Shown one piece after another: positions 43,342 through 51,056 of a DNA stretch of 64,000 nucleotides. Origin of the DNA: an uncultured Flavobacteriaceae bacterium. GTDB lineage: Bacteria > Bacteroidota > Bacteroidia > Flavobacteriales > Flavobacteriaceae. A model generated the notes under the pieces. That model worked only from the letters and a program-made list of their open reading frames with translations. It did not search any database and had not been told where the DNA came from. The stretch is taken from assembly GCA_938029725.1 (NCBI GenBank), contig CALHGE010000022.1, forward strand, positions 1-64,000. Direction: 5' to 3'. Made by a program: the position numbers and the translations under genes. Positions within the stretch are counted from its first letter, which is position 1. Every line of letters starts with the position of its first letter.

Positions 43342-43830
43342 ATGCAAAAAGAGACCGAATTTGTTCGCATTATAAAAGAGAACGAAGGCGTGATCTTCAA
43401 AATCACAACGCTGTATACAGATAATCGTGATGATCAGAAAGATTTGTATCAAGATGTAGTCTATCAATTATGGAAATCTTTTGATTCTTTTCGATCAGAG
43501 TCCAAAATTAGTACTTGGATGTATCGTATTGCATTAAATACTTCCCTTACAAGACTCAAAAAAACTAAGCGAATGGGAAACCCGGTCTCAATAGACAGGG
43601 TTGTAATGCAGCAGACTGAAAATTATGACCCTGAATTTGAGGAAAAGTTAAAGCTATTGTATTCTCATATCAAGCAATTAAGTGTATTAGAAAAAGCGTT
43701 GATGCTACTATTACTGGAAGGTAAAAAATATGAAGAAATAGCCGAAATCACAGGGCTCTCATCAAGTAATGTGGGAACCAAAATATCTCGAATCAAGCAA
43801 AAATTAAAGAATCAAATTGTAAACAAATAG
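43342..43830 (+). CDS. ECF-type RNA polymerase sigma factor
   Basis: DLYQDVVYQLWKSFDSFRSESKISTWMYRIALNTSLT; region 4 LLLEGKKYEEIAEITGLSSSNVGTKISRIKQKLK. Confidence 0.93.
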   Translation: MQKETEFVRIIKENEGVIFKITTLYTDNRDDQKDLYQDVVYQLWKSFDSFRSESKISTWMYRIALNTSLTRLKKTKRMGNPVSIDRVVMQQTENYDPEFEEKLKLLYSHIKQLSVLEKALMLLLLEGKKYEEIAEITGLSSSNVGTKISRIKQKLKNQIVNK

Positions 43831-43833
43831 ACG

Positions 43834-44433
43834 ATGGAAATTGAAGAAATGAAAGCCCTATGGTCTGATATGAGCGACCAATTAGACCAACAAAAAAAAT
43901 TAACAAACGAAATCATACTAAAGATGACACAAGAACGATACACAAATAAGTTTAGAACAATTTCTAGATATGAAACTTTTGGCGCCTTATTTTGTCTAAT
44001 AGCATTTCTGTTTATTTTAGTAAACATCCAAAAGCTAGATACCTGGTATTTGATGGCCTGCGGTGTAATGACGCTTGCTTTTATAGCTATACTGCCTCTG
44101 CTTACACTGAAATTATTAAGCCAGATTAGAAACTTCAATATTTTAGACAAGAGTTATAAAGAAGCACTTATCGGTTTTCAAAAAGCAAAAAAGAATTTGT
44201 TGAAACTACAGCAAACGGCCATCTATATTAGCTTTATAATACTATTTACATCTTCAGCCGTATTTGCCAAAATATTTGGTAATAAAGACTTCTTTTTAAT
44301 CGATAGAGGAATTAAAGAATACTTGGTTTTTGCTTTTGCTTTTGCTTTTGTTTTCTTCTTTTCTCGCTGGGGCTTTAATGCGTATAAGAAGGTAACTACT
44401 TCAGCAGAAAATGTTTTGAATGAACTAGAATAA
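43834..44433 (+). CDS. Membrane protein co-encoded with the ECF sigma factor (possible anti-sigma/regulator)
   Basis: Starts 4 bp after the sigma gene stop; cytoplasmic N-terminus then TM helices. Confidence 0.75.
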   Translation: MEIEEMKALWSDMSDQLDQQKKLTNEIILKMTQERYTNKFRTISRYETFGALFCLIAFLFILVNIQKLDTWYLMACGVMTLAFIAILPLLTLKLLSQIRNFNILDKSYKEALIGFQKAKKNLLKLQQTAIYISFIILFTSSAVFAKIFGNKDFFLIDRGIKEYLVFAFAFAFVFFFSRWGFNAYKKVTTSAENVLNELE

Positions 44434-48153: not shown

Positions 48154-48606
48154 ATGGCTAGAGCTCAAGAAACCTATGGTAAAAAAGAACGGGAAAAGAA
48201 ACGTTTAAAAAAACGTGAGGAAAAAAAGAAAAAGAAAGCAGAACGACAAGCAAATTCTAATACAGGAGCTACGTTTGAAGAGCAGCTAGTCTACGTTGAC
48301 GAGAACGGACATTTTACAGATACTCCTCCTGACCCTACCAAAAAGGTTAAAATTGATGCTGAAAGTATAGTTTTAGGCATTCCAAAGAAAGAAGACCAAG
48401 AACCCGAAGATCCGGTTAGAAAAGGTAAAGTTTCTTTCTTCGACACCTCAAAAGGTTTTGGTTTTATTATTGACTCTGAGAACAATGAAAAATATTTTGT
48501 TCACGTCAGTGGTCTAGTTGATGAAATAGCTGAGAATGATAAAGTTTCTTTTGAACTTGAGAGAGGTATGAAAGGTATGAATGCTGTTCGCGTAAAGACG
48601 GTATAG
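48154..48606 (+). CDS. Cold-shock-domain protein with basic coiled N-terminus
   Basis: GKVSFFDTSKGFGFIIDSENNEKYFVHVSGL; Lys/Glu-rich N-terminus. Confidence 0.93.
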   Translation: MARAQETYGKKEREKKRLKKREEKKKKKAERQANSNTGATFEEQLVYVDENGHFTDTPPDPTKKVKIDAESIVLGIPKKEDQEPEDPVRKGKVSFFDTSKGFGFIIDSENNEKYFVHVSGLVDEIAENDKVSFELERGMKGMNAVRVKTV

Positions 48607-48846
48607 TCCTCTTTGTTGTTCTAAGCATTTTTTAAAAAAAAATCGCTGTTCCTTGTGCATACATGATATTAATTCCGTTTTAAAAGTACATAAATCTTAA
48701 AATAGTCTTTGATTTAGGGGTATGCATATGTGATACATCTGCAGGCCTTACATAATCGGCTAGAATTACAGCATAAATAGCTTTAAAAGACAAAGGGAAA
48801 AAAAAAGCAAACCTTTACCCATAGGGTAGTGGCATTGCTAAAAATT

Positions 48847-48882
48847 AAAAAGGCCTGTACTTGATTAAGTACAGGCCTTTTT
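48847..48882. terminator. Bidirectional terminator, perfect 16-bp stem AAAAAGGCCTGTACTT / AAGTACAGGCCTTTTT
   Basis: Read directly; GATT loop; T-tract both ways; lies between the cold-shock gene and the minus-strand micro-ORF array. Confidence 0.9.
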
Positions 48883-48914
48883 ATTGATAAGTTCAAATTC
48901 CGTGATGAGCGGAG

Positions 48915-49019
48915 TTAACATTTTAAATCTGTCCAACGAATTCTATTGAGGTGATTAGACTCTGAGAAAAAAATTGATGTTGTTGATATTATCGATGATT
49001 GATTGATGATTGTTTTCAT
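48915..49019 (-). CDS. Micro-ORF D, 34 aa: MKTIINQSSIISTTSIFFSESNHLNRIRWTDLKC
   Basis: Read directly; last ORF of minus-strand array. Confidence 0.4.
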   Translation of the reverse strand: MKTIINQSSIISTTSIFFSESNHLNRIRWTDLKC

Positions 49020-49051
49020 AATTTCTAGTCTTTAAAAGGTTTGATCCTTGA

Positions 49052-49138
49052 CTATCTGTAGCGTCGTTTGCTATTCCAGATGTCGCTTTTTGATATTTTT
49101 AATGAATTTGTTACCGAATGTATATTTGAATTTTTCAT
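49052..49138 (-). CDS. Micro-ORF C, 28 aa: MKNSNIHSVTNSLKISKSDIWNSKRRYR
   Basis: 13/28 identities with micro-ORF B; conserved leader CATCATCAAAAAAACAAGATC-ATG. Confidence 0.7.
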   Translation of the reverse strand: MKNSNIHSVTNSLKISKSDIWNSKRRYR

Positions 49139-49186
49139 GATCTTGTTTTTTTGATGATGTTTGATGAATTTGTTTTTTGATACCGC

Positions 49187-49273
49187 TTAGCTGTATCTTC
49201 TTCTATTGTTCCAGATAGTGCTTTTAGAAACTTCTGAAATTTGTCTTTGGTGATGCTTGTTTAAATTTTCCAT
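49187..49273 (-). CDS. Micro-ORF B, 28 aa: MENLNKHHQRQISEVSKSTIWNNRRRYS
   Basis: Paralog of micro-ORF C; leader CATCATCAAAAAAAAACAACAACATC-ATG. Confidence 0.7.
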   Translation of the reverse strand: MENLNKHHQRQISEVSKSTIWNNRRRYS

Positions 49274-49312
49274 GATGTTGTTGTTTTTTTTTGATGATGA
49301 GTACTTCGTTTA

Positions 49313-49426
49313 CTATTGAATCTTTTTACTTTTAAGCCTTTGATCGTATAACTTGTCAGTATTCCAGCCGAATCCTAATGTGAAATAGAGCCTAGGTTTT
49401 AATTGGTGCGGATATAAAGTTTTCAT
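49313..49426 (-). CDS. Micro-ORF A, 37 aa: MKTLYPHQLKPRLYFTLGFGWNTDKLYDQRLKSKKIQ
   Basis: Leader CACCATCAATAAAAAACAACAGCATT-ATG resembles B/C leaders; shares a WNxxxxY arrangement. Confidence 0.55.
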   Translation of the reverse strand: MKTLYPHQLKPRLYFTLGFGWNTDKLYDQRLKSKKIQ

Positions 49427-49579
49427 AATGCTGTTGTTTTTTATTGATGGTGTAAAATTGTTGTTTTTAAACTGCTTTTGATAATCTATGTTGCTGAACT
49501 GTTGATTTCAAAAGATGAATTGTTTTTGATTGTTTCCAATTGACTTACACTTAATAGACGAGCGATTATTATTATTGTT

Positions 49580-49606
49580 ACAGTACTATGCATAAGATGG
49601 TACTGT
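49580..49606. promoter_or_regulatory. Inverted repeat ACAGTAC-N13-GTACTGT, candidate operator upstream of the micro-ORF array
   Basis: Perfect 7-bp arms read directly. Confidence 0.4.
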
Positions 49607-49886: not shown

Positions 49887-51056
49887 ATGAGAATTTTTCA
49901 ATTAAAGTATATTCCATTCAAACTATCCTATCTCTTTATGAGCGTATTGTATATCGTATTAGCTGCTTGCAGTAAGGATGCGAACCTACTTCCTGAGCAA
50001 GAAGATTCCGTAGCTGATGCGATTGAAGAAACAACAGAAGATAATACTGGGGGTGATAGTGCCAACGATGACACTACGAATGATGATTCATCAGATAATA
50101 CAGATTCAACAACACCTGGGCTAATCGTATTTGAGGAAGGCTTTACCTTAGACGAGACAAGATCTGTTGTCAATTATGTTTTATCACCATCTGATTACAA
50201 TCAATTTCTTGAGGGCGAAGGAAATATTTCTATGGTTACTGAAAAAGCATATCAATACCTAAAGGATGACTTTGATTATGTCATCATACTCTCAGTAGAA
50301 GCAATAAAGCCGCCTGATTTATTTTATGGTATATCAAGATTAGTCCAGAATCAAGTACGAGGCTTAGGGAGTAACACCTATGACAACTCTGCGGCATACG
50401 GTTCTGACGGGCAGCTCAAAAGCATCATTTATATGCCGAGAACCGAATACATTTCTAATGGGCCGTTTTTACATGAAATCGCACATTCATGGGCTAACAA
50501 GGGAATTATACCAAGTACGGTTGGCGGCCATTGGGGCTTTGCTAGTACCGCAGGACAATTAGGTGGTTTTGGAGAAATAGAAGCTTTGGGTAACAATACC
50601 TATCAAGGAAAACTAAATGGCTTAAATAGTTTTGGTACGTTCGCCAACGGTGGAAATTCAATAGTATTTGGAAATCTTGAACTCTATGCGATGGGATTCA
50701 TCGGTGCAGACGCATTAGAAAGTGTTCAAGTAGCCGTAAACCCTGAATGGGGCCAAAACCAAGGTGAATTTACAGCAGATGCGATTGAAACTTATGATGC
50801 ACAAGATATTATCGCCACGCATGGTGAACGTATTCCATCTGTAGAAAATTCTCAAAAATCGTTCAAAGCACTTACTGTAGTTATCTCCACAGTAGCTATA
50901 TCTCAAGAAAAAATAGACGAAGTAAGCCTAAATCTGGAGAATTTTTCAAGGCAAGGAAATCCAGATGCTTCTTGGGGAGGTCTTAAAAATTTTTGGTTAG
51001 CGACCCAACAAAAGGCAACTTTTGATTTTACAGTTACCCAGGAGAGTATTAAATAA
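49887..51056 (+). CDS. Lipoprotein with D/T/N-rich linker and HExxH metallopeptidase-like domain
   Basis: Lipobox AACSK; linker TEDNTGGDSANDDTTNDDSSDNTDSTT; FLHEIAHSWANKG (HEIAH at 50472-50486). Confidence 0.75.
   Translation: MRIFQLKYIPFKLSYLFMSVLYIVLAACSKDANLLPEQEDSVADAIEETTEDNTGGDSANDDTTNDDSSDNTDSTTPGLIVFEEGFTLDETRSVVNYVLSPSDYNQFLEGEGNISMVTEKAYQYLKDDFDYVIILSVEAIKPPDLFYGISRLVQNQVRGLGSNTYDNSAAYGSDGQLKSIIYMPRTEYISNGPFLHEIAHSWANKGIIPSTVGGHWGFASTAGQLGGFGEIEALGNNTYQGKLNGLNSFGTFANGGNSIVFGNLELYAMGFIGADALESVQVAVNPEWGQNQGEFTADAIETYDAQDIIATHGERIPSVENSQKSFKALTVVISTVAISQEKIDEVSLNLENFSRQGNPDASWGGLKNFWLATQQKATFDFTVTQESIK

Follow-up and report, generated by a model that had tools for sequence, protein, structure and literature searches.

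The PSM-alpha and aureocin A70 operons of Staphylococcus each yield one transcript that encodes about four related leaderless short peptides, and in enterobacteria MicA and RybB are short, abundant transcripts of the envelope-stress ECF sigma factor, sigmaE. Small proteins controlled by stress sigma factors are, as a general kind, already known; to our knowledge, tandem arrays of unclassified peptides such as those described here, standing behind a near-unique promoter, are not. FbpA, FbpB and FbpC of Bacillus subtilis are small basic proteins (54, 48 and 29 aa) that belong to a stress regulon and are postulated to be RNA chaperones (PMC8464778). The array peptides resemble them in being small (28-44 aa), basic (about +6) and apparently the product of a stress regulon, where "stress" rests on the ECF promoter. 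However, Pfam and NCBIfam reveal no sequence relation, so that at most the two groups may work alike, and whereas FbpA-C are single genes under Fur, the arrays are tandem and seemingly under an ECF sigma factor. RNA binding is unproven for FbpA-C as well.

We analyzed a stretch of 64,000 nucleotides from an uncultured Flavobacteriaceae bacterium (GCA_938029725.1, contig CALHGE010000022.1; hereafter the window), the minus strand of which carries four consecutive micro-ORFs, cistrons A-D (Table 1). All four frames (28-37 aa) that a preliminary description had reported are present as described, each with an ATG start, and the 13 of 28 residues that it had found shared between B and C (46%) are indeed identical. 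The leader that it had assigned to A, B and C in common can be recognized clearly at A and B, and more loosely at C (CATCATCAAAAAAACAAGATC-ATG); the perfect 16-bp terminator that it had placed at 48847-48882 exists and is slightly longer, with perfect 17-nt arms (48846-48862 and 48867-48883) around a loop of 4, and its pairing is retained through base-pair changes in the sister genomes G008 and G006 (CCTGTAC to CCCGTAC). Read on the minus strand, the TTGATGATG repeats of the plus strand are the A-rich leaders that precede each ATG. Because the upstream neighbor (49887-51056) is divergent from the array and the downstream neighbor (48154-48606), a cold-shock-domain protein gene, is convergent with it, the four ORFs form their own transcription unit. 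A leader peptide or attenuator was rejected, since the array ends at its own terminator and the next gene is convergent. Scans of the window for Rfam families and tRNAs gave no match.

Table 1. Features of the micropeptide array and its promoter, in window coordinates.
Feature	Position	Strand	Basis
Cistron A, MKTLYPHQLKPRLYFTLGFGWNTDKLYDQRLKSKKIQ, 37 aa	49313-49426	minus	ATG start; orthologues in sister genomes
Cistron B, MENLNKHHQRQISEVSKSTIWNNRRRYS, 28 aa	49187-49273	minus	ATG start; member of 28-aa family
Cistron C, MKNSNIHSVTNSLKISKSDIWNSKRRYR, 28 aa	49052-49138	minus	ATG start; member of 28-aa family
Cistron D, MKTIINQSSIISTTSIFFSESNHLNRIRWTDLKC, 34 aa, last gene of array	48915-49019	minus	ATG start; conserved in G008 and G006
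5' untranslated leader with conserved stretch AGTGTAAGTCAATTGGAAACAATCAAAAACAATTCATC, then A-rich start context of cistron A	49427-49555	minus	alignment with G008 and G006
ECF-sigma-type promoter, TAGTACTGTAACA-N15-CGTCT (-35 GTAACA, -10 CGTC)	49556-49588	minus	sole site in window; conserved spacer; linkage to peptides
Inverted repeat ACAGTAC-N13-GTACTGT overlapping -35, possible operator	49580-49606	minus	hairpin-like repeat
Intrinsic terminator closing the array	48846-48883	minus	17-bp perfect inverted repeat, then Ts
Cistron D plus 24 nt past its stop, nucleotide conservation exceeding coding need	48891-49045	minus	synonymous counts; alignment

A DNA search of 40 relatives recovered homologous arrays in the same genus, with the frames kept in sister species. 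G008 and G006 have the peptides and order of the window (A, two or three 28-aa copies, D), four further genomes (G007, G004, G002 and G014) have A with two to five 28-aa copies, and G013 has A with one decayed copy; array copy number varies between species. The search for similar arrays in other Flavobacteriaceae that had been proposed at the outset thus finds them both in sister species and across the family. Cistron A differs from its counterpart in G008 at 18 of 20.7 synonymous and 8 of 90 non-synonymous sites (pN/pS 0.10), and from that in G006 at 19 of 20.5 and 5 of 90 (pN/pS 0.06); by these counts its synonymous sites are near saturation while the peptide is retained. For cistron C, pN/pS against the same two genomes is 0.38-0.41. 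At the level of families, dN/dS is 0.22 for the 28-aa peptides (721 pairs, 50% of differences at third positions) and 0.14 for the 37-aa peptides (1263 pairs, 61%), values that do not meet the outcome named beforehand as refuting a coding role, namely that third-position divergence is not elevated. Peptide lengths are sharply fixed, at exactly 28 aa (n = 121) and exactly 37 aa (n = 103), and cistrons B and C match the 28-aa profile at E values of 8e-16 and 1.6e-13, respectively, in a profile built including both. Conserved frames, purifying selection, a single promoter, a single terminator and the orientation of the flanking genes all favor the earlier proposal of a dedicated polycistron of basic micropeptides. 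In the absence of transcript or peptide data, genome comparison supports the view that A-D are real genes in such a stand-alone polycistron, their role being unknown.

The 28-aa type has the consensus MRTLNSNQLTxxLxxTKSxxWNSKRRYR, in which W and both R are invariant and N and K are conserved at 98% and 92%, and the 37-aa type has the consensus TESRRxxFFSxFKxSKRVQWAxxRNxxR/H, in which K, R and W are invariant. Other types are represented by A (GFGWNTDRxYD), by D (INQSP..RIRW) and by a 44-aa type ending in W-KGxKRYAH. At three Gramella-type loci (L060, L144, L164), the same promoter precedes a distinct 44-aa family (MRTLDSIIQDFG...HRRPFLNLK...WYNRR). With a single invariant Trp, the 28-aa and 37-aa peptides carry a mean net charge of +5.8 and +6.4; both are hydrophilic (mean hydrophobicity -0.49 and -0.37), with no amphipathic excess over shuffled sequences (hydrophobic-moment z -0.25 and 0.68). 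A type I toxin array was rejected, as the peptides are hydrophilic and not hydrophobic membrane-spanning. Pfam, NCBIfam and PHROGs contain no family for any peptide type, a match of D to LisH_2 was discarded as far below cutoff, and profile searches of the PDB returned only insignificant matches. AlphaFold2 predicts two helices for the 37-aa type (pLDDT 74, pTM 0.29) and reaches a pLDDT of 62 for the A type, low confidence and too weak for a fold search. No constant partner gene was found around the peptide loci.

What makes the array finding interpretable is a promoter region that the preliminary description had missed (49556-49606). The site satisfies what is expected of an ECF promoter (a -35 element with AAC, a -10 element with CGTC and a fixed spacer, TGTAACA-N15-CGTCT, as seen in the information profile), and the window holds one such site against 0.02 expected by chance. 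The spacer is 15 nt in every site even where 14-16 nt were allowed (21 sites from relatives and a contig scan), and TAGTACCTTTTTATRCATAGTACTGTAACAAAA-N-CGTCTATTAG or close variants are common to all arrays. The pattern GTACTGTAACA-N14..16-CGTCT has 21 matches in 41 genomes, each upstream of a micropeptide gene, and its reversed control has none. Scanning 85,488 species with TAGTACTGTAACA-N14..16-CGTCT returned at least 119 stretches, of which 80 were listed; all of the 80 matches listed, except one in Neobacillus, fall in Flavobacteriaceae (Maribacter, Arenibacter, Aquimarina, Winogradskyella, Algibacter, Aequorivita, Eudoraea, Gramella and others) or in MAGs labelled Flavobacteriia, Flavobacteriales or Bacteroidetes. 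Among these listed matches, then, the promoter is almost confined to Flavobacteriaceae.

The link between promoter and peptides holds in both directions. Where there was room for an array, 105 of 115 promoter sites are followed by a strict micropeptide signature and 109 by a loose one, against 0 of 115 for the strict signature in each control (opposite strand, upstream, shuffled DNA). The six failures of the loose rule comprise an in-frame stop (L058), variant peptides (L121), an exported repeat protein (L074, L119, L160) and the Neobacillus site. Reciprocally, when loci were retrieved by peptide profile, and hence free of promoter bias, 29 of 30 proved to have GTAAC-N16-CGTC upstream, and 27 the extended form. 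Of 201 Flavobacteriaceae genomes, 92 carry this extended (exact) promoter, representing 88 of 187 genera, and it is absent from the genomes sampled from other families of the order and phylum.

Genomes of the genus contain between one and ten copies each of the shorter core, TGTAACA-N15-CGTCT, versus 0-2 of a reversed control. Its recurrent targets include an ECF sigma gene, behind which lie the genes of an anti-sigma-like membrane protein and of two proteins of DUF4252 type. The window genome's copy of this sigma factor, P0001 (G000:C38:20735-21241, with the core motif at C38:20660), belongs to NCBIfam NF058625, the GFO_1088/PG0214 family (238 bits, cutoff 130). An orthologue is found in 265 of 301 family genomes, nearly always as a single copy, and GTAACA-N15-CGTC lies upstream of 25 of the 26 orthologues with a readable start, mostly 70-77 nt before the start codon. 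Because the same core precedes both the sigma gene and the arrays, we infer that the gene is autoregulated and hence that the GFO_1088/PG0214 sigma factor reads the motif; it likely drives the arrays, direct transcription being an inference made without data on sigma-promoter contact. Further, every one of the 83 genomes whose peptide match reaches E<1e-3 also has the sigma factor, and no such match occurs in the 36 genomes that lack it (Fisher p 5e-6, uncorrected for phylogeny, the sigma-less genomes being mostly small). Several genomes have the sigma factor and no detectable peptide, and genus g145, which has the sigma factor (G158), gave no peptide match in 51 genomes, in a search without a within-genus positive control; the peptides are therefore not essential to the regulon. 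Elsewhere in the window, at 43342-44433, a different ECF sigma gene is followed by a gene for a 199-aa membrane protein, and the sole strict core motif of the window is not located there.

The micropeptide promoters carry more than this core. An upstream TAC half and phased A-rich (A/T) boxes are conserved in a profile of 118 such sites, and since the AGTAC...AGTACT element and the A/T boxes are absent from the sigma gene's own promoter, a second regulator of the micropeptide promoters is likely, as judged from motif conservation.

Other targets of the core motif, in eight genera, include genes for DUF456, Pmp3, DUF4870, rhodanese, ABC transporter and exported ankyrin proteins, together with exported YLPEGFN-repeat proteins and the DUF4252 proteins of the sigma operon, company that, going by these domain assignments, gives the regulon an envelope-stress flavor. 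An exported protein with YLPENFNALKGKNDLDW / YLPEGFNPYKMYVDLN repeats and no Pfam or NCBIfam family is encoded at six loci (L074, L119, L160; L226, L234, L239); in some genera its gene follows the extended promoter, in the window's genus the core promoter. A 114-aa exported protein of no known family (MRKISLMLVAALLLSTGSIFAND...; L227, L233, L237, L243) is another recurrent core target in the genus.

Published work on relatives of this sigma factor offers candidate signals, not proof. P. gingivalis PG_0214 is listed beside the DUF4252 gene PG_0216 and regulated alike (PMC10101095), and a DUF4252 neighbor is thus common to it and to the window genome's sigma factor. SigCH (PGN_0319) of the same species is reported to act on hmuYR and cdhR (PMC5607195); that PG_0214 is PGN_0319 is our inference from parallel gene lists. 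In F. psychrophilum, the -10 box of the SM6 motif is CGT; an ECF/anti-sigma pair and a rhodanese are among the genes under SM6, which is induced when nutrients are low (PMC9723704). By inference, SM6 would be the regulon of the GFO_1088/PG0214 sigma factor. We found no micropeptides reported in the literature on the SigCH regulon or SM6, nor, in the open-access literature, any prior report of these peptides. The idea that the F. psychrophilum small RNA Rfp11, which has an SM6 promoter, is a misread peptide array remained unsupported, given the lack of peptide matches in g145, taken as Flavobacterium, in that search without a within-genus positive control.

Within the window's array, the last cistron stands apart. 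For the genome pair that gave 18 of 20.7 in A, D has synonymous differences at 3 of 21.7 sites, and the block made up of D and its 3' flank, which contains TCCG-CTCATCA-CGGA, is far more conserved in nucleotides than the rest of the array. A structure test of the D region gave no significant fold. Because conservation of D and its flank goes past coding need, part of the array transcript may act as RNA.

The window genome has a second array behind the same promoter (L040; G000:C36:2592-2622 and downstream), which encodes three 37-aa peptides (MKASRNRTTTESKTGQYFSAFKNSKRAQWAQSRNFNR and relatives) and then an ATG-less D-like frame (VNSPTASKKFALLKRLIESKRFRSLEQNYCLL). D-like last cistrons (MRTFINQSP...) also end second arrays in sister species, and the leader stretch AGTGTAAGTCAATTGGAAACAATCAAAAACAATTCATC is common to this array family. 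In five second arrays (L035, L038, L040, L041, L043), copies 1 and 2 are separated by a conserved non-coding stretch of 135-136 nt that contains a stem whose arms seem to covary (GGAGCTGAAA/TTTCCGCTCC vs GGAAAGAAAA/TTTTCTTTC).

Our overall explanation, to which we assign a probability of about 0.7 and for which there are no transcript, peptide or sigma-promoter contact data, is that the locus is a stand-alone operon of four micropeptides under an ECF sigma factor. With good support for each of these steps, an envelope, nutrient or iron/haem signal would free the GFO_1088/PG0214 sigma factor from its anti-sigma factor, RNA polymerase bound to it would transcribe the arrays, and the cistrons would be translated individually, each with an A-rich leader of its own in place of a Shine-Dalgarno sequence; multiple copies would raise the output of near-identical peptides. 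The peptides might then stay cytosolic and, during stress, use their C-terminal Trp/Arg/Tyr module to bind RNA or ribonucleoproteins (ribosome, mRNA, sRNA), a tentative suggestion inferred from composition only that we hold to be possible without expecting it. We prefer it to action at the membrane on account of the charge, the hydrophilicity, the conserved Trp/Arg/Tyr tail and the precedent of FbpA-C. No obvious Hfq or ProQ homologue has been reported in Bacteroides, of the same phylum (PMC7366714). That these sigma-controlled, tandemly amplified micropeptides serve family-wide as general RNA- or ribosome-binding factors of Flavobacteriaceae, a mechanism without described counterpart, is unlikely on present evidence.

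The main rival to RNA or ribonucleoprotein binding, given the company in the regulon, is that the peptides lie against the inner surface of the membrane or against an envelope protein, which they adjust in envelope stress. The envelope-flavored targets (DUF456, Pmp3, DUF4870, exported proteins) and the suitability of Trp, Tyr and Arg residues for the lipid head-group interface speak for it, but there is no hydrophobic or amphipathic segment and the two-helix model of the 37-aa type is of low confidence, and we consider this account doubtful while taking it seriously. Feedback, with the peptides binding RNA polymerase or the sigma/anti-sigma pair to tune their own regulon, would agree with the absence, within the sample, of peptide genes without the sigma factor; many genomes, however, have the sigma factor without detectable peptides, and no sequence hint of a polymerase-binding motif was seen, which leaves the idea distinctly unlikely.

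It is also conceivable that the main part is played by the transcript, as a sigma-dependent regulatory RNA comparable to MicA and RybB with ORFs that are secondary or dual-function, as the synonymous-site conservation of D and the 24 nt downstream and the conserved 135-nt intergenic stretch in the sister species' array 2 would allow. Yet cistron A is synonymously saturated with its peptide retained, dN/dS is low in both families, the D region has no significant fold, Rfam gave no match, and, unlike in MicA and RybB, the conserved product of the arrays is peptide; a primary role for the RNA is improbable. Export without a leader, for action outside the cell as antimicrobial or surface-active peptides, is suggested by the shortness, positive charge and lack of a leader of the four peptides, encoded in tandem in one operon, and by the species-variable copy number. 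PSM-alpha and aureocin A70, however, are amphipathic or membrane-active and secreted, whereas the array peptides are hydrophilic, with hydrophobic moments not above those of shuffles; their sequence is strongly conserved across genera, whereas bacteriocins diversify, and they have no constant exporter or immunity neighbor. With amphipathic or hydrophobic peptides and constant exporter or immunity genes nearby both wanting, the array does not fit a leaderless bacteriocin or PSM operon, and leaderless export seems highly improbable. Finally, the TTGATGATG-like appearance of the plus-strand leaders might point to non-functional low-complexity DNA repeats that are open by chance, but frame conservation, dN/dS and promoter linkage refute this and leave next to no room for it.

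If the micropeptide operon under ECF sigma control is real, about half of the sampled Flavobacteriaceae genera (88/187) would carry conserved, unclassified proteins of 28-44 aa as products of one ECF regulon, many of them below the usual length limits of annotation. The near-unique DNA signature would serve to locate the arrays, and a candidate sigma factor has been named. As a caution, flavobacterial transcripts labelled as small RNAs or repeats may be peptide operons. The arrays would allow one to ask whether the stress responses of the abundant marine Flavobacteriaceae act through micropeptides.
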